Shown: piece by piece, positions 38,030 to 57,084 of the stretch
How the letters are laid out: the number at the start of each line of letters is the position of its first letter
Position numbering within the stretch: the first letter of the stretch is position 1
Assembly (NCBI RefSeq): GCF_028285715.1
Contig: NZ_JANQOO010000021.1
Span: 1 to 64,000, forward strand
Source of the DNA: Ulvibacterium sp.
Lineage (GTDB): Bacteria > Bacteroidota > Bacteroidia > Flavobacteriales > Flavobacteriaceae
Length of the DNA: 64,000 nucleotides
Direction: 5' to 3'
Program-made: the position numbers and the translations under genes
The notes under the pieces: generated by a model
What the model was told of the DNA's origin: nothing
Seen by the model: the letters and a program-made list of their open reading frames with translations, nothing else
Databases searched by the model: none

Positions 38030-39385
38030 TTAACTTTTTATATAAACGGTTTTTCTGTTCATGAATTCCCTAATGCCATGTGCCGAAAGCTCCCTACCAT
38101 AACCTGATGTCTTTATCCCTCCGAAAGGTAAGCGGGGATCACTCTTCACCAATTCATTTACAAAAACGGCACCTTCATTGCATTTGGGTATTAACCTCTG
38201 AATCCTATTTCTATCGGAAGTAAATAAAGATATTCCCAATCCAAACTCCGAATCATTGGCCAGGCCTATTGCTTCCTCCTCGGTGTCAAAAATAGTTATT
38301 CCAAGGACCGGACCAAAGGTCTCTTCCTTAAAAACAGGCATGTTCCTCGTCACATCCAGCAATATTGTGGGCTCAAAATAGGTTCCATTGCGCTTTCCCC
38401 CTAAAATTACCTTTGCCCCCATTTTAATAGATCTCTTCATTTGTTTTTCAAGCTCTATAGCCAAATCTTCCCGGGCCAAGACGCCTACAAAGGTATCCTT
38501 GTCCATGGGGTCTCCGCTCTTAAGCTTAGCTACCCTATTTCTAAAACCGTGAATAAATCTCGGCGCAATACCGCTTTGTACTAGGAGGCGCTTGCCAGCA
38601 ATGCAACTCTGCCCTGTGTTTTGAAATCGAGCTTGGATACAGATATCCAATGTCCGTTCCAGTTGGGCATCATCAAAAACGACAAGGGCATTATTGCCAC
38701 CAAGTTCCAGAACGGTTTTCTTTATATGGTATCCGGCTGTAGCGGCCACGGATGCCCCAACCGGCGTACTGCCGGTAAGTGTTACCGCTTTTACAGCGCT
38801 ATTCCCGATGACCGTTTTTACCTGATCATTGGATATGACCAAATTTTGAAAACATCCTTTTAGGAACCCAGCTTTTTCAAAAATTTGTTGAATGGTTTCC
38901 GCGGATTTCATCACATTGGAGGCATGTTTCAGCAGCCCAACATTACCGGCCATCAAATTGGGTGCGGCGAAGCGAAAAACCTGCCAGAAAGGATAGTTCC
39001 AGGGCATAATGGCCAGAACCGGACCCAAGGGTTCATAACGGACAAAACTTTCCTCCGCCTCAGTCTTGATAATTTCATCCTTAAGATGGTTTTCTGCATG
39101 GGTAGCGTAGTATTCACATACCCAGGCACATTTTTCGATTTCAGCAATGGACTGGACAATGGGCTTTCCCATTTCCAATGTGATGATTTCCGCATATTTT
39201 TCTGAATTCTCCATTAAAACCCTACCTGCGGTGCGCATTAATTTGGCGCGTTCGCCAAATGATGTTGTTTTCCACTCTAGAAATGCGCTTTGGGCCCTGG
39301 CAATCCTTTCTCTTAGCCCCGAATCATTCAATTCCTGAAATTCAAAGAGGTTTTCGCCGTTAAATGGGTTAGTGGATGTCTTCAT
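38030..39385 (-). CDS. Succinate-semialdehyde dehydrogenase-like aldehyde dehydrogenase
   Basis: 451 residues from the ATG at 39385 (MKTSTNPFNG); the longer frame starts with GTG and is less likely. NAD site PWNYPFWQVFRFAAPNLMAG, TLTGSTPVGASVA, catalytic Glu227 (VLELGG) and Cys261 (NTGQSCIAGKR) are all intact, and KEETFGPVLGI is the late conserved block. The sequence is closest to the succinate-semialdehyde dehydrogenase branch (NPFNGE opening, QSCIAGKR). It oxidises an aldehyde to the acid with NAD(P)+. It stands alone, with no GABA transaminase nearby, so the physiological substrate is open. Confidence 0.85.
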   Translation of the reverse strand: MKTSTNPFNGENLFEFQELNDSGLRERIARAQSAFLEWKTTSFGERAKLMRTAGRVLMENSEKYAEIITLEMGKPIVQSIAEIEKCAWVCEYYATHAENHLKDEIIKTEAEESFVRYEPLGPVLAIMPWNYPFWQVFRFAAPNLMAGNVGLLKHASNVMKSAETIQQIFEKAGFLKGCFQNLVISNDQVKTVIGNSAVKAVTLTGSTPVGASVAATAGYHIKKTVLELGGNNALVVFDDAQLERTLDICIQARFQNTGQSCIAGKRLLVQSGIAPRFIHGFRNRVAKLKSGDPMDKDTFVGVLAREDLAIELEKQMKRSIKMGAKVILGGKRNGTYFEPTILLDVTRNMPVFKEETFGPVLGITIFDTEEEAIGLANDSEFGLGISLFTSDRNRIQRLIPKCNEGAVFVNELVKSDPRLPFGGIKTSGYGRELSAHGIREFMNRKTVYIKS

Positions 39386-39540
39386 AGATGTTTTTACCGA
39401 TTTAAATTGCACAAAAATCCTTCTCGATAAGATAGAAGTTTATCGGTTCATTTAAAATTATGAATTTTTGGAAGTAAATAAGTCCAATTGGGCCAATAAC
39501 CATGAATACAGGAAATTCACAAATCGCTATCCACCCTGTC

Positions 39541-40674
39541 TTATTCATCAAGTTGTGCCAATTCCTTTAGTAAATTGAAGGACAACTTCGAAATATTGGG
39601 GCTATCGGCCGAATAATTTTTCATTAGGACAACCCCATTGCCCCGGTCTTTGTCGAATGCCAGGTTGGCCCGGTATCCTGCAACCCCTCCCGAATGACCG
39701 ATTACGGTTAATACGGAATCCTGTTGTATTCCAAAGCCCAATCCGTATGCCTGCCCCTCACCTTTTGGGGTCTGGATTGTCTGCATGCGAGATAAATTAT
39801 TTCTTGAAAGTAATTTGACCGAAAGTCCCAGATTGCATAGGATGAATTTAGCCAAATCGTTCGGGGTTGAATAGATGCCCCCGTTGGGGACTTTATAGCC
39901 ACGCCCCATATGCTCCCTTTGTGGTTTTTCCCGGTCTAGTTTACCATCGGGTCCCGTTTCCAAACCTTTGGAAAGCCTAAAAATTTGGTCTTCCGGCACA
40001 ATAAAATAACTATTGTCCATTTGCAGGGGTTCAAATATTTTCTCTTCTATCAACTCCATAAACGGCTTGTCGGCAGCCCTGGAAAGGGCCAACCCCAAAA
40101 TACCGTATCCAATGTTTGAATAACTAAATCTTTCTTCAGGATCATACTGAAAACTTGTATTGGCAATGGATTCCAATACTTTGGCTTCCCATTCGGCTAT
40201 TGGTCCAGCTGCCGCATCTTTTTGTTTTGGCTCCCTTATAAGCCCGGAAGTATGGGCCGCCAAATGTTGAAAAGTGATTCGTCTTGCGTCGGAATACCCA
40301 TCCAGTTTTTTAATTTCGGGAAGATAAAGTTCAACAGGGTCACTTAGGGTAATTGTCCCTTCCTGTACCAACTGCATCATCAAAAATGCGGTAATCGGTT
40401 TTGATATGGAACCTGTTCGATAAATTGTGGTCGTATCCGCTTTAGTTGCTTTGTCCGAATCGGAAACACCAAAGGCTTTGGACCAAATAACTTGGTTATC
40501 TACAACAATAGCCCCGGATATACTTCCATAATTTTCGAGTTCATTGTTGAGTTGATCTTCAAATTTCGCAATGACTGATTCCAAAGTCTCGGTTCGTACG
40601 GTGTTCTCCCTGGTTTGGGAATTACATCCTAGAATCACCAAAACATACCACAGGATAAGTACGCTATTTTTCAT
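39541..40674 (-). CDS. Class C beta-lactamase-like serine hydrolase (lipoprotein)
   Basis: 377 residues. Lipoprotein signal MKNSVLILWYVLVILGC (Cys17). Nucleophile motif RTGSISKPITAFL (Ser89, Lys92, SxxK), second motif YSNIGYGILG (Tyr-Ser-Asn), third GHSGGVAGYRA (His-Ser-Gly). This is the penicillin-binding/esterase fold; family members are DD-peptidases, esterases or peptidases, and resistance should not be assumed. The first of the seven 18-bp elements reads directly into its start (CGATG). Confidence 0.85.
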   Translation of the reverse strand: MKNSVLILWYVLVILGCNSQTRENTVRTETLESVIAKFEDQLNNELENYGSISGAIVVDNQVIWSKAFGVSDSDKATKADTTTIYRTGSISKPITAFLMMQLVQEGTITLSDPVELYLPEIKKLDGYSDARRITFQHLAAHTSGLIREPKQKDAAAGPIAEWEAKVLESIANTSFQYDPEERFSYSNIGYGILGLALSRAADKPFMELIEEKIFEPLQMDNSYFIVPEDQIFRLSKGLETGPDGKLDREKPQREHMGRGYKVPNGGIYSTPNDLAKFILCNLGLSVKLLSRNNLSRMQTIQTPKGEGQAYGLGFGIQQDSVLTVIGHSGGVAGYRANLAFDKDRGNGVVLMKNYSADSPNISKLSFNLLKELAQLDE

Positions 40675-40690
40675 CGTTTACTTGAACTTT
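40673..40690 (-). repeat. 18-bp element, copy 1
   Basis: Reads AAAGTTCAAGTAAACGAT on the minus strand; its last two bases are the first two of the start codon of the serine hydrolase gene. It is the start of the duplicated ~300-bp segment and matches the copies at 44132, 44844, 46309, 46465, 46883 and 47850. Confidence 0.75.
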
Positions 40691-40751
40691 CTTTTCTCAA
40701 AATATAGCGGTCTTAAACGAACCGACAATCAAAAAAAAATTGATTTTCTTG

Positions 40752-40787
40752 CAATTTATACGATAAGGATAGCACTTTATACAATTG
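40752..40787. promoter_or_regulatory. Inverted repeat in duplicate copy 1
   Basis: CAATTTATA at the left and TATACAATTG at the right pair with one bulge around 17 bases. In the second copy (47933-47967) the arms read CAATTTATG and CATACAATT: the A-T pair at the inner end has become G-C on both sides. That compensating change suggests the pairing is maintained, as an operator or RNA hairpin. Confidence 0.5.
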
Positions 40788-40882
40788 TAGACCTCAAATA
40801 CATGATAAGTAGCTAGATTCACATTAAAATAAGAGCCATACCAGCTACACGAATTGTCTTTTCATTAAAAAACGAGTAACCT

Positions 40883-40987
40883 ATGAATCCTCTTGTATCC
40901 TATATCGCAGCCGCAGCCATACTTTTTGCTTTAAGTGTTCTTGTTTTTATTTTGACCGGGCTTATGAAAAGTAGACCTGGCCGGTAA
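40883..40987 (+). CDS. 34-residue membrane peptide (intact copy)
   Basis: An ATG at 40883 opens 34 codons plus stop: a short start MNPLVSYIAAAA, one hydrophobic helix (ILFALSVLVFILTGLM), and a basic tail KSRPGR. The same ORF, with identical length but ATA in place of ATG, recurs at 48066-48170. The preserved reading frame in both copies supports a real small membrane protein. The size and layout recall subunit-type micro-proteins such as KdpF, but no family is claimed. Confidence 0.55.
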   Translation: MNPLVSYIAAAAILFALSVLVFILTGLMKSRPGR

Positions 40988-41017
40988 TTGCCCTACTACC
41001 TTCACGGAAATCATCCC

Positions 41018-41030
41018 GTATTTGAACTTT
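41018..41030 (-). repeat. Partial 18-bp element
   Basis: GTATTTGAACTTT on the plus strand matches 12-13 bases of the element consensus (TATTTGAACTTT). It lies 48 bases beyond the bglX stop, at the edge of the duplicate. Confidence 0.4.
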
Positions 41031-41078
41031 GGGAGCAGTCCCCTAAAGGTCATTTCAGTCACGAACTACAGGATGCCG

Positions 41079-43586
41079 CTACTTTCCGTCACATCCAGGT
41101 TTGGCATCGATATCCGATTCCAAGCGAATATGGCTTAGTCCAATATCTACACCTTCCCCAGCTGTAATGATTAGGGCAGAACTGATCTGGGTCATATCTA
41201 CACCAAGATCGGCAAAGCAACTTAGGCTTATTCGATATTCGTCCCAGTCATTCGCCGCAATGCTGACTTCAAGAAATTGATCGCAAGAGGCATTTTCGCT
41301 GCACATCCCTATTTGGACAAGTGCCTCGCCGGCTTCAAATGATTTCGCTGAGAACGTCAATTCCATGGCGCCATTTGCCTGACGGGACAAATCAATCTGT
41401 GAAGCTGAATTGATCCGCATTTCATCATGGTCAGATTTGGTCCATTTTATCCTCAAAGCATCTTCCTGGGCCTTGTGATCGGTCTTACTAACAATCAACC
41501 CTCCTACGGATGTTGGATAGCTCGCAATTTGTTTATTCAAATCGCCGGAACTCAACCATAATCCCCAAGGTGCAACAGGGATTCCCTTGCTGAAAAACTC
41601 ACCCGTAAATGCAATAGCGCTATTTTCCAACCCTGAATTTTCCGTAAGCTGATCGACGGTTGTATCGTTCTTGTAGGTAAGGCCATACCCTAACTTAAAT
41701 AACGGTTCGGCATCTTTCGAAACTACGGCACTGGATGGCCAAGAGAAAGATAAACGACCTGTAAAATCAAAGGAAGGATCCCTTTGAAACAATAGGTCCG
41801 AAATACCTCCTCCTTCACTACCAGGCAACCATGCTGCGATAAAGGCATCAGAGACGTTGATTTCAGGATTGGTCCATAAAGGTCGGCCCGATAAAAAGAC
41901 GGATACAATGGGAATACCTTTACTTTGAAACTCCGCCAATGTATTCACGTCAAAACCATTGGGAACGAAATCGAGATTTTCACGATCCCCCTGGAACTCC
42001 GCGTAGGGGTCCTCACCATAAATGGCGACCACCACATCGGCTTCCATAGCTATAGCACCATCGGCGGAAAATACGACCTTACCCCCAGCTTTTTGCACCG
42101 CTTCCTGTATACCATCCAGTATGGACTCACCATTGGGAAACTCTTCGTTGGTATGTCCTACCCCTTGCCAGGAAAGCGTCCAACCCCCACTGGCTTTGGA
42201 TATACTTTCTGCTCCATCACCCACTACCAGAATTGTTTTTGAGGCATCCAAGGGTAACACGTTACTGTTGTTCTTAAGTAAAACCATCGACTCTCGAACG
42301 GCTTGGCGTGCTATGGCCCTGTTTTCAGGGAGCCCCAAAAGACTTTCATCCCCGGCATTTTTTCGTGTGCTCGGCGCACCTTTGGTAAATATCCCTGATG
42401 CTATTTTCACGCGCAGGATACGACGCACGGCATCATCTAATCGTGTCATGGGAATAGTACCGTCCTTTACATGCTTCAAGGTGCTTTCATACAAGCCCTT
42501 CCAACTGTCCGGGGCCATAAACATATCGAGACCTGCATTTAGCGACTGCGCACAATCGGTATTCGTACAGCCGGTAACCTGGCCATGACCGTTCCAGTCA
42601 CCTACCACAAAGCCGTTGAAGCCAAGTTGGCCTTTTAAGACATCGGTCAATAAATCCTTGTCGCCGTGAAGTTTTCTACCTTGCCAGCTGGAAAAAGAAG
42701 CCATCACCGTCTGTACGCCTGCGGGAATGGCGGTGTAGTATCCGGCCGCATGTATCTTGTATAAGTCCTCTTCGCTAATACGGGCATCGCCCTGATCGAC
42801 CCCTTTTTCCGTAGCCCCGTCAGCGAGAAAGTGCTTGGCGCTGGATATAACACGGCCGGCCCCCATAAAATCCTCTTCGCCAAAACGGCCCTGTAGCCCG
42901 TAGACAACGCGATCTGCATATGAATGGACTATCTTCGGATCCTCAGAAAATCCTTCATAGCTCCTCCCCCAGCGTACGTCCTGTGGAACCGCCAAAGTTG
43001 GGGCAAAGGTCCAATCATGGCCGGATACCGTAAGCTCATGGGCGGTAACCGCTGCAATTTGTTCGATCAGATCCGGATTGTTCATCGCACCGAGTCCAAT
43101 ATTATGCGGAAAGACAATAGCCCCGCTAAGGTTGGCATGCCCATGTACCGCATCTATGCCCCATATACAGGGAATGGCCACTTCAACACCTTCGTCATCG
43201 ATGGATGCATTGTAATATTTATCGGCCAATTCCAACCAAGCTTTTGTATCTGCATAAGGCAATGGCCCAGGTGCGGAATTTCCGCCGCTCAATACGGCAC
43301 CCAAGCGATATTGCTTCACCTCCTCCGGCGTTACCGAAGCATTGTCCGCCTGGATAACCTGACCTACTTTTTGTTCCAACGTCAGTTTTGGTAAAAGATC
43401 ATCTATTTGCGCTTCTATCGCCGGATCCAAGGGTAGCGGTCTAATGTTGGGCCAATCTTCCGGATGTACAAGATTCGTTGATTTTTCTATTGCCATAGTA
43501 TTCTTTTTTTGCGTACAGCCTAAGACTAGGAGGGACAAAATACAATATAGGGAGACGGGCACGGTAAACGGCTTTACAATACGCAT
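41079..43586 (-). CDS. Glycoside hydrolase family 3 beta-glucosidase/glucanase lipoprotein
   Basis: 835 residues. Lipoprotein leader ending LVLGC (Cys24). The GH3 N-terminal barrel has IDAVHGH (145-150), DVRWGRSYEGFSED (203-216), KHFLADGAT (251-259) and the nucleophile Asp330 in GFVVGDWNG. The second domain starts near 420 with MVLLKNNSNVLPL. An extra C-terminal beta-sandwich of about 200 residues matches the ExoP type exo-1,3/1,4-beta-glucanase tail. It likely cleaves beta-glucans or oligosaccharides at the cell surface. No 18-bp element directly precedes this gene, and its base composition looks like the native genes. Confidence 0.9.
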   Translation of the reverse strand: MRIVKPFTVPVSLYCILSLLVLGCTQKKNTMAIEKSTNLVHPEDWPNIRPLPLDPAIEAQIDDLLPKLTLEQKVGQVIQADNASVTPEEVKQYRLGAVLSGGNSAPGPLPYADTKAWLELADKYYNASIDDEGVEVAIPCIWGIDAVHGHANLSGAIVFPHNIGLGAMNNPDLIEQIAAVTAHELTVSGHDWTFAPTLAVPQDVRWGRSYEGFSEDPKIVHSYADRVVYGLQGRFGEEDFMGAGRVISSAKHFLADGATEKGVDQGDARISEEDLYKIHAAGYYTAIPAGVQTVMASFSSWQGRKLHGDKDLLTDVLKGQLGFNGFVVGDWNGHGQVTGCTNTDCAQSLNAGLDMFMAPDSWKGLYESTLKHVKDGTIPMTRLDDAVRRILRVKIASGIFTKGAPSTRKNAGDESLLGLPENRAIARQAVRESMVLLKNNSNVLPLDASKTILVVGDGAESISKASGGWTLSWQGVGHTNEEFPNGESILDGIQEAVQKAGGKVVFSADGAIAMEADVVVAIYGEDPYAEFQGDRENLDFVPNGFDVNTLAEFQSKGIPIVSVFLSGRPLWTNPEINVSDAFIAAWLPGSEGGGISDLLFQRDPSFDFTGRLSFSWPSSAVVSKDAEPLFKLGYGLTYKNDTTVDQLTENSGLENSAIAFTGEFFSKGIPVAPWGLWLSSGDLNKQIASYPTSVGGLIVSKTDHKAQEDALRIKWTKSDHDEMRINSASQIDLSRQANGAMELTFSAKSFEAGEALVQIGMCSENASCDQFLEVSIAANDWDEYRISLSCFADLGVDMTQISSALIITAGEGVDIGLSHIRLESDIDAKPGCDGK

Positions 43587-43719
43587 ATTACAATTGATGT
43601 TAGTTTAGTTTTATAGTACATAAGGATCCCTTTGAATCCTAAACCGACCTGTAAGTTACATTATTTCTTGTTGTGTTTGGGAATGTCTTTTGCCGTTGTT
43701 TTGTAATGGTGCCTAATTA

Positions 43720-44127
43720 TCATTTTTGATTCTTTTTAGCTTGCTTTCTTAAACGTCTTTTTCGTTCCGCTTTGGTTTCAATATGAAAATTGATTGGAAG
43801 CAAAACGCGGCTCTGGCGGATACGCCATCTTTCAATAGAGGATCTATTTTTGGGACTTGTTTAATATTTCGACGGGCTCATTCTCGAGAAATTCATGCGG
43901 CCCCCTTACCTTAGTATCAACAAATTCTCCACTTTCATTAACTGCAAACCTTGTAAGAACGAGAAGATTGTCGCCTGATTTGTAATTCAAAACTTGGACA
44001 ATACTGTCGTTTTATCGTGATTTGGCTCTCTGTTCTGAATAGTTTGGGATATTAATTCAGCATTCTAACTTCGCAAATGGATTGCAGAAATCAATATTGT
44101 AGCCAAAATAAAATCCTTCGTTATCAC
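43720..44127 (-). pseudogene. Decayed secreted TonB C-terminal-domain protein
   Basis: Fragments in three frames assemble into one known pattern. A GTG at 44127 opens a signal-peptide-like MITKDFILATILISA (GTG read as start), then a stop. In another frame comes LTRFAVNESGEFVDTKVRGP, followed by HEFLENEPVEIL, the core of the TonB C-terminal domain (FxVxxxGxxxDxxVxRGPH). After frameshifts come VPKIDPLLKDG and finally LLPINFHIETK with a basic tail (RKRRLRKQAKK), matching the usual LPINF end. At least two frameshifts and early stops make it non-functional. The 18-bp element at 44132 precedes it. Confidence 0.7.
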
Positions 44128-44131
44128 AGTT

Positions 44132-44149
44132 ATCCTTTTTTTGAACTTT
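44132..44149 (-). repeat. 18-bp element, copy 2
   Basis: Reads AAAGTTCAAAAAAAGGAT on the minus strand (one C changed to G). It lies between the signal-peptidase stop (44158) and the TonB-like pseudogene, whose start is five bases further on. Confidence 0.7.
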
Positions 44150-44157
44150 TCGAAAAG

Positions 44158-44838
44158 TTATTCGATTAAAACGCCTTTCAACGCAGACTTCTCAATTGGC
44201 CCTATGTATCTAGAATCCTCAGATTGATCACGATTATCTCCCATAATAAAAACCTTTCCCAAAGGAATTTTGAATGGACCAAAATTGTCCTTGCTCCAAT
44301 TCTGACCATACATGGCCTTTATAGTTTGGTTCAACTTACTTGCAGCATCAACAACTTTTCGTTTTTTTAAATTTAATTTTTCCGCGACTCTATCATCAAT
44401 AAACTTTGAAATAGTATCTTGGGGCTTCATCCACCAGTAGTCTTCACCGACTTCTCTTCTTATGACATCAAATTTATTAAACTCCTCAATTGAGATTTTA
44501 TACTCATGAGCAAGTGCATATTTATTATCAAAGTTTTTCCCATTAATAAATAAAACCCCATCTTTAATTTCAAGAATATCATTCTCCACCGCAACCAATC
44601 GATGAATTCTATAATGAGAATGGAGACTATCAGGATACTTAAATCTATAACTTACAAAATCCCCAGGTTTTGGGGATATAAGATTGGTTGTTATGACAAT
44701 TTCCCCTTCTTTGATGTTTGGTTCATTCGACCAGGTAGAATTCCTGAAAACAGCTAACAATCCAGAAAAATAAAGCATATGGTAAATGACAAAAATAGAA
44801 CCAATAATTATTAATGTTATCATCTTCCACCTTTTCAT
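44158..44838 (-). CDS. Atypical signal peptidase I (Ser-His dyad)
   Basis: 226 residues. A membrane helix (about 6-30) leads to the serine motif WSNEPNIKEGE, with Ser37 in the S-x-x-P position. The bacterial box E, MGDNRDQSEDSRYIGPI (199-215), is intact. Where leader peptidases carry a catalytic Lys before Arg (IKR) this protein has RIHRLVAVEND, so His79 replaces the Lys, as in the Ser-His ER and archaeal type. A helical insertion (about 105-180) separates the halves. It could cleave a special set of exported proteins or be inactive. AT-rich, with the 18-bp element at its start. Confidence 0.8.
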   Translation of the reverse strand: MKRWKMITLIIIGSIFVIYHMLYFSGLLAVFRNSTWSNEPNIKEGEIVITTNLISPKPGDFVSYRFKYPDSLHSHYRIHRLVAVENDILEIKDGVLFINGKNFDNKYALAHEYKISIEEFNKFDVIRREVGEDYWWMKPQDTISKFIDDRVAEKLNLKKRKVVDAASKLNQTIKAMYGQNWSKDNFGPFKIPLGKVFIMGDNRDQSEDSRYIGPIEKSALKGVLIE

Positions 44839-44843
44839 TTGTC

Positions 44844-44861
44844 ATCGTTTAATTGAACTTT
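44844..44861 (-). repeat. 18-bp element, copy 3
   Basis: Reads AAAGTTCAATTAAACGAT. Its first base is shared with the TAA stop of the DUF1028 gene, and the signal-peptidase ATG follows five bases after it, so almost nothing else lies between the two genes. Confidence 0.78.
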
Positions 44862-46087
44862 TAGCCAGTTATTTTGCGTAACAACATTTCAGCCTCAATA
44901 TTTTCCTTATCCATTTGTAGTGCCAACTCCAGGAACTTGATTGCCTTTTCATTCTCCTTTTCGTAAAAATAGCTTCTTCCAAGCAGGAAATTGAGATAAG
45001 ACGATTCAATTTTATCCGATTTCAGCCGGTGGGCCAATGTTATGACCTCCAATTCCCGTCCAAGATTGCTCAACATATGTAGAGCGGCCTCCCAATCTTT
45101 TGTGGTAAATGTACTTGGATTGATCAATCCCTTCATTTCAGGGTGATCTTTTAAAAAATGGAATGCTGGTAGATACATCGACCAATTCGGATTTTCTGAA
45201 ATCCCTTTCTTGATCCATTTAATAGCACTTTCTTCATCACCCAATGCAATGTTGGCCGAAGCGATTCTCGAATACATCCCGGTCCATCCGTCAAGCATTT
45301 TCTCTGACTCTGACAATTTTTCCAATGCCCTTGAGCGGTTTCCTTCGCTATGTGCATAGAGCGCTTGGTTCAACCTAATCCTTCCATAGTGGAAATCCAG
45401 GAGTGTCCGTAGGTCGTCTATTGGATTGCTGGAATGATCGACACGTAGGTCTATCTGATTGTACCACTCATTGTTGGTGCCTTTTACCACAAGCGCCGCA
45501 GACTGTTTCCCGGAAATCTGTCCTCCCGATGCTTCACCGGCCATAAGGCTTTCCAGGAGTCTTTGTGCAAGTGTTCCGGTGGCGGTTTCAAATGTTTTGG
45601 ACATATTGGTGAGCACGCTGTCTGCCAATTGGTTACCCATTACCACATAGTTCTTTCCCACAATTTGGGAAGCTTTTCCATTCCAAAATTTCAATGATTT
45701 TCCGGTAAAGGCATAAACGTTTCCATCTTTATCCATTCCCGAAACTTGCCGATAGTTTGCGTGCCCGTCTTCGTTCTTGGTGTACAGGATGGCGTCCGTG
45801 ATGGACTTTCCTTCCCTTAACTTTTCGAAGCCTGCCTGCGCATATCTGGGTTCCGTTTCGGCGATTACCGAAAATGCACCCAGTCCCGGTTCTATATAAA
45901 TGGTCGAATTTCCCACATAGATGTTGTTGGTGGCAACAGCAATGCCCCATTCCTGTGCATTTTCATCATACGCCAAAATTGAAAAGGTGGAGTTGATATT
46001 CTTTCCCTTTAACAGGGATTGCAAATTCTGGGAAAATGAAATGATTGAAAAGAAAAAAAGGGCAAGGGTCGTAATAATGGGTCTCAT
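44861..46087 (-). CDS. Secreted DUF1028 (Ntn-hydrolase-like) protein with TPR tail
   Basis: 408 residues with a signal peptide (MRPIITTLALFFFSIISFSQ). The DUF1028 domain (about 30-235) shows FSILAYDENAQEWGIAVATN and PGLGAFSVIAETEPRYAQAG, with GNQLADSVLTNM and GGQISGKQSAALVVK following; the family belongs to the Ntn-hydrolase fold and its substrate is undefined. Residues 240-408 are TPR-like (YAHSEGNRSRALEKLSESEK; DEESAIKWIKKGISENPNWS). No 18-bp element directly precedes it, and its codon use looks native, like bglX. Confidence 0.82.
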   Translation of the reverse strand: MRPIITTLALFFFSIISFSQNLQSLLKGKNINSTFSILAYDENAQEWGIAVATNNIYVGNSTIYIEPGLGAFSVIAETEPRYAQAGFEKLREGKSITDAILYTKNEDGHANYRQVSGMDKDGNVYAFTGKSLKFWNGKASQIVGKNYVVMGNQLADSVLTNMSKTFETATGTLAQRLLESLMAGEASGGQISGKQSAALVVKGTNNEWYNQIDLRVDHSSNPIDDLRTLLDFHYGRIRLNQALYAHSEGNRSRALEKLSESEKMLDGWTGMYSRIASANIALGDEESAIKWIKKGISENPNWSMYLPAFHFLKDHPEMKGLINPSTFTTKDWEAALHMLSNLGRELEVITLAHRLKSDKIESSYLNFLLGRSYFYEKENEKAIKFLELALQMDKENIEAEMLLRKITG

Positions 46088-46184
46088 CGTATTTCGTTTT
46101 GATTGATTAATGGTTAGATGAAAACCACTCTAATTTGTTACATACCCTGAAAACAAATTGCGCCACCTACGGCGAAGAATCCTT

Positions 46185-46310
46185 TTATTGCACTTTAGAA
46201 TACATAGCAAAACCAATTAAAAGGATGATAATCAAAATTGAAAGGACTATCATCAGCTTTTTCTGATCTTTTAAAATCTCTATGACTAAACCCAATATTT
46301 GTTCAAGCAT
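46185..46310 (-). CDS. 41-residue single-pass membrane peptide
   Basis: The ATG at 46310 opens MLEQILGLVIEILKDQKKLM followed by a strong helix (IVLSILIIILLIGFAMY) and SKVQ. The amphipathic first helix, basic KKLM flank and single hydrophobic span form a coherent small membrane protein, too short for automatic calling. The 18-bp element (copy 4) ends at its ATG. It lies next to a second such peptide gene in the same orientation. Confidence 0.55.
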   Translation of the reverse strand: MLEQILGLVIEILKDQKKLMIVLSILIIILLIGFAMYSKVQ

Positions 46311-46326
46311 CGTTTTTTTGAACTTT
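46309..46326 (-). repeat. 18-bp element, copy 4
   Basis: Reads AAAGTTCAAAAAAACGAT. Its first base is part of the TAA stop of the 43-residue peptide gene and its last two bases are in the ATG of the 41-residue peptide gene: it is the entire intergenic space. Confidence 0.8.
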
Positions 46327-46457
46327 TAATTATTAATGAATTTAAGAAAAGTCCATATTAAATAAATGAAAAACCCAAACCCGGCAATGTAGACCAAAAT
46401 CACCAGAAGCAACGATAGTCCGGTCAAGCCCATCATAAATTTCTTTAATTTCTCCAT
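46326..46457 (-). CDS. 43-residue membrane peptide
   Basis: The ATG at 46457 opens MEKLKKFMMGLTG, then a long hydrophobic stretch (LSLLLVILVYIAGFGFFIYL) ending KFINN. Either one long or two short helices. It starts seven bases after an 18-bp element (copy 5) and ends within the next copy (46309). Not recognised as a known family. Being a neighbour of the 41-residue peptide and separated from it only by the element, it may be expressed with it. Confidence 0.5.
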   Translation of the reverse strand: MEKLKKFMMGLTGLSLLLVILVYIAGFGFFIYLIWTFLKFINN

Positions 46458-46464
46458 TTAGATA

Positions 46465-46482
46465 ATCGTTTATTTGAACTTT
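46465..46482 (-). repeat. 18-bp element, copy 5
   Basis: Reads AAAGTTCAAATAAACGAT, the consensus. One base separates it from the stop of the 131-residue protein gene, and seven bases lie before the next ATG. Confidence 0.8.
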
Positions 46483-46483
46483 A

Positions 46484-46879
46484 TTATTTGTTAGGAATAG
46501 AATTTCTATAGGCTGCCCATTTTTTCATATCCTTCTTAAATTTTTCTACATCAAAAAAGTCAGGAGTAAATCCATCTGCTGCCTTTAAGTCAAGTGAGTC
46601 CAAAATGTTACCTATGCATGGGATTGCTAGCTCATTACCACGAACATGCATGACAAAGCCGTCGGACAATTCAGAATCTCCCATGTTAAACTCAATTGAG
46701 AAGAATTCATTTTCCAAAAGACCCCAAGATGGATTCGTAAAATCCACAGTCGGTTCAGCTACTTTAATTTTATCAATTAGTTCGCTTCTGTTGCCAATTG
46801 GTTTAGGTTCAAAATCATCAGGTATTTGTTCTAATGAATCAAAATCTCCCCAATCTTGTACATATAAATCCCAACTCAT
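46484..46879 (-). CDS. 131-residue hypothetical protein
   Basis: No family recognised. The sequence opens MSWDLYVQDWGDFDSLEQIP and is acidic, with alternating strands (FFSIEFNMGDSELSDGFVMH, VRGNELAIPCIGNI) and a C-terminal helix (EKFKKDMKKWAAYRNSI). No leader, membrane helix or catalytic motif. The compact soluble fold would suit a binding or immunity-type protein, but that is speculation. AT-rich. It starts three bases after copy 6 of the 18-bp element. Confidence 0.6.
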   Translation of the reverse strand: MSWDLYVQDWGDFDSLEQIPDDFEPKPIGNRSELIDKIKVAEPTVDFTNPSWGLLENEFFSIEFNMGDSELSDGFVMHVRGNELAIPCIGNILDSLDLKAADGFTPDFFDVEKFKKDMKKWAAYRNSIPNK

Positions 46880-46882
46880 TTA

Positions 46883-46900
46883 ATCGTTTATTCGAACTTT
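46883..46900 (-). repeat. 18-bp element, copy 6
   Basis: Reads AAAGTTCGAATAAACGAT on the minus strand, three bases before the ATG at 46879 and about 25 bases after the stop of the 184-residue gene. Confidence 0.78.
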
Positions 46901-46924
46901 AAAGTTTAGGCCCAAGATTTTTCA

Positions 46925-47479
46925 TTAATCAATTTTGGGAACTTTTCTATAGTTGAAACCATATTCCTTCTGAAGTCTATGGTTCATATAATGGTCTGGG
47001 GGATAAACTGAAACCTTGATTTTGTCATTCTTGGATTTAAGCCACTTGACAAAATCTATGAACTCATCTCCACGGGCTATCGTTTTAAATCTAATTGTTT
47101 CCTGCTTTTCCCCGTAATTGAATATCATCTTGTTGAATGTGGGGCTTTTATTTACGGATATGAATTGTAATTCAATTATGTTTTCATACAGAATCCTTGC
47201 ATTGTCAGGTTTGAAGACATGGTCAACAACTATGAATTGCTCCTTAAATTCAACATCGAATATCCTATTCCTACTGCGGTGGGCAATCCATAGGGAAATG
47301 AAAAGTACCACCATCGCAACACTAATTTGAGCTGCAATATTATTCGTGGTGGCTATAACAGCATAACCTATTCCTATAAACATTAGGGTGGCAACTACCG
47401 TGTCGAAAATTTTGAATCTAGAAGAAGAACGGTATTTATACATTGAATCCTTTTGGGGAGATTTATTGGTGCCAATCAT
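46925..47479 (-). CDS. 184-residue two-helix membrane protein (hypothetical)
   Basis: Residues about 24-60 form two membrane segments (FDTVVATLMFIGIGYAVIAT; IAAQISVAMVVLFISLWIAH) followed by a soluble C-terminal domain of about 125 residues (KEQFIVVDHVFKPDNARILY; TIRFKTIARGDEFIDFVKWL). The C-terminal part resembles a small PH-like domain: strand-rich and ending in a helix with W. No confident family. The start lies 17 bases inside the end of the zinc-ribbon gene, so the two are translationally coupled. Confidence 0.6.
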   Translation of the reverse strand: MIGTNKSPQKDSMYKYRSSSRFKIFDTVVATLMFIGIGYAVIATTNNIAAQISVAMVVLFISLWIAHRSRNRIFDVEFKEQFIVVDHVFKPDNARILYENIIELQFISVNKSPTFNKMIFNYGEKQETIRFKTIARGDEFIDFVKWLKSKNDKIKVSVYPPDHYMNHRLQKEYGFNYRKVPKID

Positions 47480-47819
47480 GAAAACAAAACCTACATTGTT
47501 TAGATTTTGGGGTTCTTGTTAATTTGCCACATTTAGGACAATAATTGAAAACTATTTCATTTCCATTATCCGATAATATTCTTTTGGCCGTATTTTCCCT
47601 AAAAACCTCTATACCCTCTTTAAGTAAAATAAGTATTTCGGGGTCATCCGTTATCCAATTATTTCTCAAAAGCATTTCTCTTCGAGAGTGAGAAAACTCA
47701 GAAACGTTTTCCTTGTCCTGTTTAAACAATGTTGAATAATGCCTCCATGCCTTTTTCTCTTCTAGCGTCATCAAATGAGATGAGTATCGCAATATATAAT
47801 CAACTTCATTCTTATCCAT
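47463..47819 (-). CDS. 118-residue zinc-ribbon protein
   Basis: The N-terminal 75 residues are helical and charged (MDKNEVDYILRYSSHLMTLE; WRHYSTLFKQDKENVSEF). The C-terminus is a zinc ribbon: CPKCGKLTRTPKSKQCRFC, followed by FHDWH, giving Cys-x2-Cys and Cys-x2-Cys about 13 apart with a nearby His. No known family. It is the first gene of a two-gene unit with the 184-residue membrane protein (17-base overlap), 30 bases downstream of the last 18-bp element. Confidence 0.65.
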   Translation of the reverse strand: MDKNEVDYILRYSSHLMTLEEKKAWRHYSTLFKQDKENVSEFSHSRREMLLRNNWITDDPEILILLKEGIEVFRENTAKRILSDNGNEIVFNYCPKCGKLTRTPKSKQCRFCFHDWHQ

Positions 47820-47849
47820 AAAAACTAATAAGTAAAGAATATTGTGAGA

Positions 47850-47868
47850 ATCGTTTTATTTAAACTTT
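47850..47868 (-). repeat. 18-bp element, copy 7 (one-base insertion)
   Basis: Reads AAAGTTTAAATAAAACGAT. It is the right-most copy, 30 bases upstream of the zinc-ribbon gene, and begins the second copy of the duplicated segment. Confidence 0.68.
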
Positions 47869-48065
47869 TGCTTTCTCATCATCCATCAGTTTTAGACGGA
47901 CCAGCGTATCTAAAATAATATTGACTTTCTCGCAATTTATGCGATAAGTACAGCACGTCATACAATTATATTCCTTAAATCCATGATCAGTCGCTAGATT
48001 CTCCTTAAAATAAGAATCACACGCCGCCTGTACGAATTGTCCTTTAATTGTAAAACGAGTAACCT

Positions 48066-48170
48066 ATAAATTCTCTTGTATCTTACATCACGGCTTTAGC
48101 CCTACTTTTTGCCCTAAACGACTTTGTTTTTATTCTGATCGGGCTAATCAAAGATCGACATGGTCAGTAA
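48066..48170 (+). pseudogene. 34-residue membrane peptide, start-codon-lost copy
   Basis: Same length and frame as the ORF at 40883-40987, but its first codon is ATA instead of ATG. The peptide would read INSLVSYITALALLFALNDF and so on, ending DRHGQ. The frame has no internal stop, so either the loss is recent or ATA is used weakly as a start. Probably a dead copy. Confidence 0.55.
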
Positions 48171-48195
48171 ATTCTCCAATGTGAAGGCCTTCCTA

Positions 48196-50541
48196 TCACC
48201 ACCAATTCTTTTTACTGTTATAAATGTATCTATTTTTCTGGTTCTCTTCTAGAATAGATAAGTGCGAAAAAAAAGGTATTAGTTTTTCATAAATTGTATA
48301 ACCATGCGGATGTATCGATTTAACCAACATCATTTTTTCTTTACAATTCATGTATCTCTTGTACCATGTACGGCTTGTATTTTGTTTGTAATCTGCTTTT
48401 GACCTCATTTTTATTTTATTAGCCTCAACAAGTTTTTTTTCTTCCATTAGTTTTTTATAACGACTTGGTTCGATAAACTCCGGATAAGCGTTGCCGTATA
48501 ACTCATGTCCCAACGTATTTACATCCCTCTTTAATTCTTTATAAAAAATATTAAGCCAATTGCGTCCAATATAGTTTTCATTAAAAATTAGTTTCTCATG
48601 TAGAAACGGCATAATACTAAAGACTAAAAACCAAAATCTTTCCTTGCCCCTGTTTTTCCTTAAGATATGGCCTAACTCGTCTTGCTTGAAAAAAGTCTTG
48701 AATCCCAGATTTTCATTAAAAAAAATACCTCTGACATTTTTAAAAAATGTTCCTAAAAGATCCATTGAGTCATCTGCCATATTCTTTAAGCTCTTCTTTT
48801 TTAAAGACTCTAACATACTTTCAAGAATATCTTTATATTTTAAGTTATAATTTACTTGAAAGAAAACAGATCTATCTGGTTCTTTCAACCAACTAAACAC
48901 ACCGTTTATATTATTTAAATCCACAGACGGATTTGATATGAATCTTTCAAAACCAATTGTCAGATTTGAAACGTCTTCCTCCTCTATCGATATTTTGCTT
49001 TTGCCATAACTTTTGCGGAAGCCGGACATAAATAACAAGTCTGTATTAATATTTTTAAACAGAATATTTCTATAAGACAACAAATCTTGATTAATATATT
49101 GAATGAAAAATTCGGCCATTGAAGGATGATAAAACCAATATCTACCCATTATATTACTTAAAAGGCTACCCCTTAACAATTCCAGTTCTTCATTTATTAA
49201 AATCAATTTTTTAGGTGCATCCAAATCTTCATGGATGTAATTGTAACAGTAAGCTATAGATTCTATTCTTTTATTAGAGGAAAGAAATATGGACAACAAC
49301 AGTATTTTTTTGTTGTCATCAAGATTTATGAAGATCTTCTTCAAATAATTATCTGGAAAATCAACATGTTTTAAGAACTCGGTATAATCAAAGTCCTTAT
49401 TATTTTCAAAGTAAGATCTAACAACCTCTGGTGTAAAATTAGCTTTATTTATAAGAGGAGCTAAATCAAATTTGATGTCCGATAAACCCGTATTAAGCTT
49501 AAAGTACCTAAAGAATATGCTCTCTTTTTCTATCTGGCTTAGCATATTGACATCGACGTTGATCCTTTCGATTATTGACTTAATTTCCTTGTCGGAATAA
49601 TTTATGAAAGCTCTGAATATATATTCTCGACTTGTAAAAATGAACTTATGGTTGTTGTCTGATAAATCAAAAATGAATTCTAGTTTTCTATTAATTAAAT
49701 CAGCTCGATTAAAATCCAATTCATACTTTCCGAAAGTGTCGTCAAAAAGGAATATCTGTTTTTTGCTCGTATCATAAAACCTGTCAAAATCATGGATATC
49801 GATGATGTTATAGGGAATAAATTCTTCAAGAAAATGCTTATTGAAAATAATCATTTCAGCGGTAAAAGTCTTTCCAGATTTTGGTGGGCCAGATAACAAA
49901 AGAATATTGTTATTTTCAATTTTTTCTAGGGCGTTATTAAAAATACTTGTGTAAACAAATCTGGTTCTGTTCTTTTCAAATAGATGGACGAAGCTCCTAG
50001 AATTGTTCTCCTCTACTTTGTTTATTATTCTATCGAGCAAAATTTTAAAATCAGCATTTTTAATAATGGCTGGAAATAAAATTTTAATCTCGTCATTGTT
50101 ATCGATACACGATTCAAAATGCCTATAACTGTATATCTTAAACTCTAACTTAAACTGCAGTTCATTATTAAGTACAAAGTTGTTAAAGATTTCAGATAGG
50201 TCATCATGTTGATTCCCGGTGAGACTGATATTGGTTACAAGGCAATAAATATCAGAAACTAGTTTGTTCTTTAAATAGACTTTGTCAAGTTCACTCTTCA
50301 AATCCTGTTTCAGAGAATTGAAATCAAGTTTGGATTTGTGCTTTGATTGAAATATGTATTTTCGGGTTTTTCCATCACTTGAAAAAAAGTTTGTCACCCC
50401 CTCGTAGACAAATTCTCGTCCTTTGTCATTACCCCCTTCCATTGGTTCAATCGATTTGGAAACATCAACCTGTAAACATTTAAAGGACAAAAGTTCAAAT
50501 TGTTGCCAATCCAGGTTTTCTATATTGTATTTGTAGTTCAA
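48196..50541 (-). CDS. Mrr-like nuclease fused to nSTAND3 NTPase (candidate antiphage protein)
   Basis: 781 residues. Residues 9-75 match an Mrr-type PD-(D/E)xK nuclease: Glu15 in WQQFELLSF, Asp39 in GGNDKGREF with Glu43, and Gln65-Lys67 (YIFQSKHKS). Residues about 190-330 form a STAND NTPase close to the nSTAND3 pattern: Walker A GPPKSGKT (218-225), Walker B IFLFDD (263-268), then FIFTSREYIFRA. The last 400 residues are helical, a likely ligand sensor. Such layouts (compare Avs4) cut DNA after phage recognition. The start is TTG at 50541, with an in-frame TAG three codons upstream. AT-rich compared with its neighbours, beside a dead resolvase. Confidence 0.8.
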   Translation of the reverse strand: MNYKYNIENLDWQQFELLSFKCLQVDVSKSIEPMEGGNDKGREFVYEGVTNFFSSDGKTRKYIFQSKHKSKLDFNSLKQDLKSELDKVYLKNKLVSDIYCLVTNISLTGNQHDDLSEIFNNFVLNNELQFKLEFKIYSYRHFESCIDNNDEIKILFPAIIKNADFKILLDRIINKVEENNSRSFVHLFEKNRTRFVYTSIFNNALEKIENNNILLLSGPPKSGKTFTAEMIIFNKHFLEEFIPYNIIDIHDFDRFYDTSKKQIFLFDDTFGKYELDFNRADLINRKLEFIFDLSDNNHKFIFTSREYIFRAFINYSDKEIKSIIERINVDVNMLSQIEKESIFFRYFKLNTGLSDIKFDLAPLINKANFTPEVVRSYFENNKDFDYTEFLKHVDFPDNYLKKIFINLDDNKKILLLSIFLSSNKRIESIAYCYNYIHEDLDAPKKLILINEELELLRGSLLSNIMGRYWFYHPSMAEFFIQYINQDLLSYRNILFKNINTDLLFMSGFRKSYGKSKISIEEEDVSNLTIGFERFISNPSVDLNNINGVFSWLKEPDRSVFFQVNYNLKYKDILESMLESLKKKSLKNMADDSMDLLGTFFKNVRGIFFNENLGFKTFFKQDELGHILRKNRGKERFWFLVFSIMPFLHEKLIFNENYIGRNWLNIFYKELKRDVNTLGHELYGNAYPEFIEPSRYKKLMEEKKLVEANKIKMRSKADYKQNTSRTWYKRYMNCKEKMMLVKSIHPHGYTIYEKLIPFFSHLSILEENQKNRYIYNSKKNWW

Positions 50542-50553
50542 AGTCAGCTATAT

Positions 50554-50766
50554 TTATCGGCTATGTTTACCAGTATATGGTCTAAGTTTCCCAGAAAGCC
50601 CTTGGTGTCTAAGATATTTATAGTACGTAGCTCTAGAAATATCCAATAGTTCACATATTTCAGAAACCGTCGATTTTCCTTCTTTAAAATACTACTTACA
50701 AAGTACAGCTTTTTGGTGATTTTTCTTACTAATTCCTCTAGGAGCACATAAAACTTTTCCCCTTGT
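50554..50766 (-). pseudogene. Serine resolvase/invertase C-terminal remnant
   Basis: One frame reads TRGKVLCAPRGISKKNHQKA, VLCK, stop, then YFKEGKSTVSEICELLDISR and ATYYKYLRHQG. This is the hinge and HTH_7 DNA-binding domain of small serine recombinases (EGKSxxEIxxLLxISRATxYxYL). An in-frame TAG at 50692-50694 stands where a CAG (Gln) would fit, and the catalytic domain with its Ser is missing. It therefore marks an old mobile element. The remnant ends 13 bases before the nSTAND gene start. Confidence 0.75.
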
Positions 50767-50845
50767 TCATAACCCCGTTGAAAACTTCGAAATTTTCCAA
50801 AATTGGGATGCACAATAACCGCTAACTTTATACAAACTTCTCGAC

Positions 50846-51253
50846 ATGAGCGATAGGTCCCATTCTCTTTTAAACATTCGTCCTAACATTCCAAAAGCCA
50901 AAATCACCCTTGAAATGACCGATGCCGAGCGTTTCCAGAACGAAACCTTGCGGCCCATTATCAAGTTCCAAAACCCGCTGCTTTTGGCGGCTTTTGCCAA
51001 TTATATAACAAAACACAAAAATCGTTTCCACGATCTGGTCTTGGAAAAGCGTTTGGAATACCTAGAAAATGCCATCCAAAAGGATATCAAATTCAGGAAT
51101 TCCCTTAAAGGGATGATTATCGGTCAATTTACTTTGGAGGAATACCAAAAGTACATTCAAAATTCCTCGGCATTGAACAAGCGCATGATGGGCATGGTCA
51201 TTGACCGCTTAAAGGACCAGATACAATTTTTTGAGGAGCCTGTCCTAGTCTAA
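50846..51253 (+). CDS. Conserved small Flavobacteriia protein
   Basis: 135 residues, opening MSDRSHSLLNIRPNIPKAKI. A helical soluble protein with RFQNETLRPIIKFQNPLLLA, KHKNRFHDLVLEKRLEYLEN and AIQKDIKFRNSLKGMIIGQF. I know closely similar proteins only by conservation in Flavobacteriia; some databases label them glyoxalase, but the metal ligands of that fold are not visible, so I would not use that name. No leader. The stop overlaps the convergent DUF2461 stop by nine bases. Confidence 0.7.
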   Translation: MSDRSHSLLNIRPNIPKAKITLEMTDAERFQNETLRPIIKFQNPLLLAAFANYITKHKNRFHDLVLEKRLEYLENAIQKDIKFRNSLKGMIIGQFTLEEYQKYIQNSSALNKRMMGMVIDRLKDQIQFFEEPVLV

Positions 51254-51925
51254 AATCGATTCACCGTTGAGATTGGTGGTCAAGATATCGCTCATCAGAT
51301 CAAAATAAGGCCGAATGGCCTTGAACGCGTCATCAACGGTTTTTGAAAAACCATCGGATATCACTTCATCGTCCGAGAAATTGCGGACAAATATGAACTG
51401 TTTCCTTTTTATCAGGTCAATATCCGGGTGTTCCTTATCAAAACCCTTGGGTGCGGTTTTTACACCATCTCCGACAAGATCTCCCCAGATTTTTTTAAAA
51501 TCCGTATCGTTGATGATCTTTCTGAATTCCGAGGCATCGAGTTCAAATTCCTTGCGTATCCGAAACAAATCCTCCTTATTGGGGTCCCAAAAACCGGTTG
51601 CGAGAAAACTTCCGCCAGGTTTTAGCTGTATATAATATCCACCGCGTAAACGTGCACCGGCACGGGAAAAAGAACAGGCAAAATGGGATTTATAGGGACT
51701 CTTATCCTTGGAAAAACGGACATCCCGATAAATTCGGAACATTTTCATTTTGTCTATATCGTCATGCAGCTTAAGATTTTCCATCACCCCGGAGAAAAAG
51801 GTTTTTGCATCCATTTCATGCTGCTTAAACTCCGGTTTGTTTTCAGTAAACCATTCCCTATTGTTATTTTTTTCCAACTTTTTTAGAAAACCCAGGGATT
51901 TCTTGGTAATTGATGGCTGTAACAT
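51245..51925 (-). CDS. DUF2461 domain protein
   Basis: 226 residues. The domain (whole length) has FLKKLEKNNNREWFTENKPE, FRIYRDVRFSKDKSPYKSHF, and GGYYIQLKPGGSFLATGFWD, all standard for DUF2461/TIGR02453. Function is unknown. A soluble cytoplasmic protein. It stands divergent from the cysE gene, with a promoter region of about 95 bases between them. Confidence 0.88.
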   Translation of the reverse strand: MLQPSITKKSLGFLKKLEKNNNREWFTENKPEFKQHEMDAKTFFSGVMENLKLHDDIDKMKMFRIYRDVRFSKDKSPYKSHFACSFSRAGARLRGGYYIQLKPGGSFLATGFWDPNKEDLFRIRKEFELDASEFRKIINDTDFKKIWGDLVGDGVKTAPKGFDKEHPDIDLIKRKQFIFVRNFSDDEVISDGFSKTVDDAFKAIRPYFDLMSDILTTNLNGESILD

Positions 51926-51993
51926 ACGACCTAGCAGTTGTTATTTTAAGCTAAAGTTAACCATTTAGGGGTTACCGCTTTTGAAATATTGGT

Positions 51994-52001
51994 TAATTTT
52001 G
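51994..52001 (+). promoter_or_regulatory. -7 box of the cysE-cysM operon
   Basis: TAATTTTG is a full match to TAnnTTTG and lies 19 bases before the ATG of the serine acetyltransferase, leaving a short leader. No good -33 TTTG was found 19-21 bases upstream. Confidence 0.5.
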
Positions 52002-56860: not shown

Positions 56861-57084
56861 TGGAATAAGGACTTTTTTTGCCGAATTTTATGTTCCAAAT
56901 AGGATGGAATAGTTGTACATTTGGGAGAAAGCGGAAAAGATTGACGAATTTATGTCATTCATCTTAAGATAGATTTGATATAGTTCCTTTTAGTTCCTAA
57001 CGTTTCCGGTGAAGCAAAAGAATACCACACTTTTTTTACATTTGGCAACATAATTTGCCCTTCATCGAAAATTTGAAATAAACG

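Follow-up and report, generated by a model that had tools for sequence, protein, structure and literature searches.

The gene block and its repeated element

In a 64,000-nucleotide stretch of Ulvibacterium sp. DNA (Flavobacteriaceae; contig NZ_JANQOO010000021.1, positions 1 to 64,000, hereafter the window), a run of minus-strand genes is punctuated by an 18-bp repeated element that is best read as a cassette junction. The block is very likely a decayed array of mobile gene cassettes, belonging to an integron-like system run by a serine recombinase. Its features are given below from the 5′ end; open reading frames are abbreviated ORFs, lengths in amino acids aa, and a position weight matrix PWM, and A1 denotes an alignment of seven recombinase sequences.

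50566–50763, minus: small serine recombinase relic, C-terminal part with an in-frame TAG, N-terminal part missing (A1 profile, tblastn)
48196–50541, minus: large nSTAND3 NTPase gene, listed with a TTG start, between the relic and the first site (PF20720, E = 1.4e-30)
47912–48170, minus: second, diverged copy of cassette X, a direct repeat of 40731–40987 (repeat search, 78–81% identity)
47850–47868, minus: degenerate site, AAAGTTTAAATAAAACGAT, with a 1-bp insertion (from the sequence; missed by the PWM scan)
46925–47819, minus: segment with two small genes, of 118 aa (47463–47819) and 184 aa (46925–47479) (ORFs)
46883–46900, minus: site (mismatch search, PWM)
46484–46879, minus: 131-aa gene (MSWDLY...), one cassette (homology to a cassette of genome G001)
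46465–46482, minus: site, consensus (mismatch search)
46326–46457, minus: 43-aa gene, one inter-site segment (ORF)
46309–46326, minus: site (mismatch search)
46185–46310, minus: 41-aa gene, one cassette, with its stop codon inside the next site (homology to a cassette of genome G174)
46179–46196, minus: site (PWM, 19.6 bits)
44861–46087, minus: DUF1028 and TPR gene between two sites (PF06267, E = 6e-49)
44844–44861, minus: site (mismatch search)
44158–44838, minus: signal peptidase gene (Peptidase_S26) between two sites (PF10502, E = 4.6e-23)
44132–44149, minus: site (mismatch search)
41079–43586, minus: bglX-type GH3 gene between two sites, candidate cassette (PF00933/PF01915)
41013–41030, minus: site (PWM, 20.2 bits)
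40691–41012, minus: cassette X, 322 bp, with no long ORF on the array strand (homology)
40673–40690, minus: last site (mismatch search)
39541–40674, minus: serine hydrolase gene whose start lies at the last site, either the last cassette or a chromosomal neighbour (PF00144, E = 4.4e-65)

All seven copies named in an earlier, sequence-only reading of the window are real and lie on the minus strand, six with zero to two mismatches and the seventh (47850–47868) with a one-base insertion. That list was incomplete, the site at 46179–46196 having been overlooked, and its ‘partial trace’ at 41018 is itself a site, lying at 41013–41030. The two genes said to lack the element are in fact flanked by it: the DUF1028 gene sits between the sites at 46179 and 44844, and the bglX-type gene between those at 44132 (∼550 bp away) and 41013 (50 bp away).

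A PWM built without the window sequence found eight sites above 18 bits in the window, against a mean of 0.1 in ten simulated first-order Markov sequences. At up to three mismatches there are eight matches where 0.29 are expected, and none of 100 shuffles reaches eight; one of these eight, at 57069 (three mismatches, 11.1 bits), is probably due to chance. Rather than being spread evenly through the 5.0-Mb genome, six of the seven matches with up to two mismatches fall inside the block, and at up to three mismatches there are 29 matches versus 18 for the reversed pattern. In a profile of 263 de-duplicated sites, 18–19 positions are conserved, partly by selection because the sites were picked at three or fewer mismatches, and a weak A/T preference is seen outside them. 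The tight packing of stop and start codons described for the window holds across many arrays: site positions 17–19 give the ATG at 100 of the 276 sites for which a downstream ORF start was found, and in 140 of 537 cases the preceding ORF has a stop codon starting within site positions −2 to 18. An Rfam RNA element was rejected as the identity of the repeat, with no matches at gathering thresholds within window positions 39000–52000.

The recombinase relic matches the A1 profile (E = 1.0e-19 at 50590–50766) and is 79% identical by tblastn over 63 residues to the recombinase of genome G382 (50575–50763, reaching 50566 with another query); its position upstream of the array, and its strand, match those seen in relatives. 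The window array appears decayed, because the 47850 site has an insertion and diverged copies of cassette X lie at both ends, and, with a broken recombinase, this copy has probably lost its mobility.

Cassettes and arrays across the family

The same cassettes turn up in different genera, their homology stopping at the 18-mer, and units are common to genomes in which the neighbours differ, which bears out the proposal in the earlier reading of a cassette-like capture process with the 18-mer as its joint. The cassette of the window's 131-aa gene aligns with a G001 cassette along 400 of 400 bp at 93% identity, both neighbours being different, and that of the 41-aa gene aligns with a G174 cassette along 112 of 112 bp at 91%, again with different neighbours. 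The DUF1028 and TPR gene aligns over 1124 bp, at 69% identity, with inter-site DNA of genome G217; cassette X resembles a cassette of G259 (78% identity) and a portion of a G002 segment (80%).

Inter-site segments were taken from 33 regions and from 71 of 80 recombinase loci (nine contigs being already included); of 460 initial segments, 15 were removed because they had a res-like end or, at recombinase loci, lay on the minus strand, leaving 445, and the site set was reduced from 624 to 581 by collapsing identical contexts. The 445 segments form 398 families, 38 of which have more than one member, and 34 of those 38 come from at least two source genomes or loci. The longest ORF is co-oriented with the array in 385 segments and antisense in 25, and a further 35 hold no ORF of at least 50 codons. 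One antisense gene is found as a cassette in two G001 arrays (L061 4987–5340, L062 7532–7885); what looked like a duplicated cassette in L187 was only a shared stretch of 110 bp.

Cargo was surveyed through 176 cassette ORFs from named loci, of which 110 were listed and 100 of those scanned against Pfam. The 100 sampled ORFs hit 40 families (E 1e-5), 18 of the 25 listed families being single-member; the families include serine hydrolases (four), Fic, thioredoxin-like, major facilitator superfamily (MFS), methyltransferase, ParE and RES families, and many ORFs received no assignment.

When relatives were searched, as the sequence-only reading had proposed, the motif was found to mark arrays in two genomes of the same genus and in part of the family, the relatives' arrays being longer than that of the window. 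The longest, in G001, has 27 same-strand sites at up to three mismatches, running from 4731 in L060 to 8412 in L061; the same 135-aa gene (MSDRSH) adjoins the G001 array and the window array, and a stretch resembling the bglX-type gene was seen by eye beyond the former. Distribution is patchy, with at least six matches to a degenerate pattern in 15 of 397 family genomes, and array-bearing loci belong to Flavobacteriaceae and to two metagenome-assembled genomes named only as Bacteroidetes or Bacteroidia (L208, L252). Spread through the order was rejected, an exact match occurring in 13 of 296 order-level genomes, seven of the 13 outside the family with one match each; spread by viruses was likewise rejected, 16 viral stretches carrying one exact match apiece and no arrays.

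Linkage between site positions and cassette bodies, analysed after leaving out res-like sites and pairs under identity and length limits, suggests a crossover inside the site, with positions 1–9 following the upstream cassette and 15–16 the downstream one. Among pairs sharing only the upstream body, positions 1, 3, 4, 6, 7, 9, 10, 11 and, weakly, 15 agree more than in shuffles; among pairs sharing only the downstream body, positions 15 and 16 do so. Positions 10–11 are confounded by stop codons, and once those cases are removed 11 is still linked and 10 is not, while 15 keeps its upstream linkage. The cut can therefore be assigned to the interval from about 9 to 15 but no more narrowly.

A linked clade of serine recombinases

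In an all-against-all comparison of ORFs from the fetched regions, the top cluster is a serine recombinase comprising 10 ORFs from eight genomes, eight of the 10 lying upstream of, and co-oriented with, an array. The protein scanned matches PF00239 (E = 1.3e-43), and R7, S9, R67 and R70, which we take to be the catalytic residues, are invariant across the seven A1 sequences, giving the domain with conserved Ser and Arg residues that characterises the serine recombinase family. Two sub-clades are seen in A1 (L102, L108, L130 and L141 versus L114, L115 and L137), one with a C-terminal extension bearing a CxxC...C..H pattern and the other without it.

At E 1e-30 the seven-sequence profile has matches in 25 of the 397 family genomes, and 13 of these exceed 300 bits; a recombinase above 300 bits is present in nine of the 15 genomes with at least six site matches versus four of the 382 others (Fisher p = 5e-12). 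A profile search of genome contigs, in which each of 84,980 species is represented by a single genome, gave 522 confirmed stretches, and the best 80, mostly named as Flavobacteriaceae, were used as recombinase loci. Around these, downstream sites number 287 on the recombinase strand and none on the other, and upstream sites two on the recombinase strand and 45 on the other. At the 71 loci that do not overlap PWM training, the corresponding counts are 248 and 0 downstream and 0 and 42 upstream, and a reversed PWM gives one match across all 80. At least one downstream site on the recombinase strand is present at 60 of the 80 loci, and none at 20.

The 45 upstream opposite-strand sites (36 at −105 to −111, seven at −25, one at −60 and one at −6340) mostly represent a site-like palindrome near −107 that resembles the cassette sites. 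Most modules have this palindrome, and further similar half-sites or repeats were seen, by eye only, nearer the recombinase gene. In a Tn3-type res region three sub-sites would be expected between site I and the resolvase gene; the comparison here rests on the 36 palindrome sites and on those repeats.

A tree was built from proteins of at least 170 residues without stops, which covered 84 of 100 loci (the 80 best and 20 further homologues), with a midpoint root for drawing only. All 49 members with a downstream site fall in one branch of 65 (support 99/97), and none of the 19 members outside that branch has one. The 20 further homologues (18 at 41–54% identity and two identical copies at 67%) have no sites within 12 kb or the available sequence; no other repeated site was found beside the distant recombinases, an apparent one at L269 being a repeat inside a large gene. 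The two identical copies (L284, L285; genome G374) have neither the upstream palindrome nor downstream sites, and perhaps sit on another mobile element.

Entry points can be located where closely related loci diverge. Among four Flagellimonas-type loci, L187, L188 and L189 are 94.6–96.2% identical to L186 over 923–939 bp, the alignments stopping 0, 1 and 7 bp past the first site, which begins 67 bp after the recombinase gene, and the DNA beyond differs; L181, L182 and L196 align with L176 at 83–92%, the alignments likewise ending 0–6 bp beyond a site, here located 632 bp downstream of the gene, where the sequences part. Both groups therefore present an attI-like first site followed by variable cassettes, as in integrons. 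For the left border, ungapped identity among 14 loci is mostly 0.2–0.5 outside the upstream palindrome, and the alignments of two more divergent pairs, L176 against L178 and against L184, end at this palindrome or close to it. A loose promoter pattern, looked for as a counterpart of the Pc promoter at the integron platform, was matched within 150 bp after the recombinase at nine of 64 loci, compared with 17 of 1280 random windows; with this pattern and these 64 loci, no general promoter next to the first site was established.

The proposed system and its alternatives

An independently evolved integron-like capture system of Flavobacteriaceae, with a dedicated clade of small serine recombinases, 18-bp double-stranded sites and attI-like entry beside the enzyme, is a likely explanation of these patterns. 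Of each 18-bp site, the larger left part (AAAGTTCAA...) would form the 3′ end of one cassette and the short right part (SGAT) the 5′ end of the next, complete sites marking the places where cassettes are joined head to tail; in relatives, arrays start, at their 5′ end and on the same strand, beside a small serine recombinase of the one clade. We infer that the enzyme acts catalytically on the 18-mer, cutting and joining sites. Cassettes would thereby leave an array, probably in circular form, and enter either at an initial attI-like site that follows the recombinase gene or at any of the array sites; the system may be active at present. The palindrome ∼107 bp upstream, together with the half-sites nearer the gene, resembles a Tn3-type res region and may serve control or synapsis.

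Several observations weigh against this proposal. Recombination itself was not observed; small serine recombinase sites are ∼26–28 bp, so that an 18-bp core is short by comparison; and the cut is not cleanly mapped, position 15 remaining linked to the upstream body also. The comparison for gain or loss of single units that the earlier reading suggested yielded no A-B-C versus A-C pair among 277 segment triples, with one genome per species. A clear attI-like junction is limited to two Muricauda/Flagellimonas subgroups, and the left border is mixed, six attI-type pair alignments extending 60–105 bp beyond the palindrome. Sixteen of the 65 branch members have no downstream site, five with less than 2 kb of sequence and 11 with ∼10 kb; for one of these 11, L197, the next site on the G174 contig is ∼16 kb downstream. 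Among recombinase-like ORFs, a fragment lies inside one array (G122) and another ORF at the far end of one (G348). Site-bearing genomes without an intact recombinase of the clade are G000, G001, G002, G122, G370, G166, G179, G305, G226, G396 and G186, with fragments or relics in G000, G122, G226, G396 and G186, and also G290, where there are distant ones only. G290 is site-rich (19 matches) and its recombinases are 41–45% identical; a clade member may have been lost or left unassembled there.

The absence of an intact recombinase from some arrays would also fit sites that serve another, unlinked enzyme or homologous recombination between repeats, the serine recombinase being a passenger or the resolver of its own module, which the res-like upstream region could serve alone. 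This is unlikely: the one-sided polarity at the 71 loci outside PWM training weighs against a passenger, for which any position would be expected, the palindrome upstream of the gene is similar to the cassette sites, and RecA-type recombination probably needs more than 18 bp. The alternative raised in the sequence-only reading, a translation-initiation or operon-expression signal carried along with the genes, no site-specific recombination being involved, draws on the provision of ATG, and often of the preceding stop codon, by the site, which does double as a start context. It leaves unexplained the antisense and non-coding segments bounded by sites, the arrest of inter-cassette homology at the sites and the confinement of sites to one strand downstream of the recombinase clade; it was rejected as a translation-start context and is very improbable in its wider form.

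Integrons are, to our knowledge, the main known bacterial system collecting single genes as cassettes. Integrons, superintegrons and CALINs have a recombinase at one end, attI and co-oriented diverse cassettes, many of unknown function, and attC has a GTTRRRY core and an imperfect hairpin. The arrays described here share the layout of a recombinase at one end, an attI-like first site and co-oriented diverse cassettes, many without an assigned function, and those without an intact enzyme are comparable to CALINs. However, integrons use a tyrosine enzyme and a structured attC, whereas here a serine enzyme, co-oriented with the cassettes unlike in integrons, is linked to an 18-bp site without clear flank conservation. 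None of the 15 array genomes has a match above the TIGR02249 cut-off for the IntI tyrosine integrase; GTTCAAA breaks GTTRRRY, and conservation ends at ∼18–19 bp (no hairpin fold was computed), in agreement with the earlier remark that an attC hairpin would not fit in the space. The reading as a genuine integron or CALIN with an unusually short attC was rejected on the integrase result and is extremely improbable.

The rAID arrays are also similar, in that co-oriented small genes with conserved intergenic motifs lie beside a recombinase; there the enzyme is a predicted tyrosine recombinase, placed upstream, the cargo consists of predicted immunity genes and the hosts are Bacteroidales (PMC12247911). 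Here the linked enzyme is a PF00239 serine recombinase (no separate search was made for the rAID enzyme), the cargo is mixed, the 100 sampled ORFs spanning 40 Pfam families with many ORFs unassigned, and the loci are mostly from Flavobacteriaceae; membership was rejected on the enzyme, and it is highly unlikely that the arrays belong to a rAID-type system. Tn3/γδ resolvases share the PF00239 family, and the repeats upstream of the gene resemble their res sites; the solved structures closest to the enzyme include 2gm4 and 1gdt. The recombinase described here is linked to gene-cassette arrays instead; it has 46.9% identity to a plasmid protein annotated tnpR. Hin/Gin invertases supply the nearest solved structures by sequence (4m6f, 3uj3) and share a short, imperfectly palindromic site; they use an inverted pair, whereas the array sites are many direct repeats.

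No recognisable description of serine-recombinase cassette arrays was found in an open-access library, searched by listings and abstract openings with subscription papers mostly outside. If the proposed serine-recombinase system is real, it would represent a second, unrelated solution, cassette capture having evolved more than once, and would account for the successions of small, mutually unrelated genes seen in these Flavobacteriaceae; genetic tools could also make use of so compact a site. The sites, arrays and recombinases are defined well enough for tests in laboratory hosts.

Among the other genes of the block, those of 118 and 184 aa have no Pfam match below E 0.01, and the nSTAND3 NTPase gene beside the recombinase relic, which matches the candidate defence family PDC-S73 in PADLOC (E = 3.4e-28), may be array cargo. 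The two diverged copies of cassette X, each of 250–320 bp, bracket the window array, and the 3′ end of this cassette bears a TATATTTTG stretch, noted by eye, that may be a promoter.

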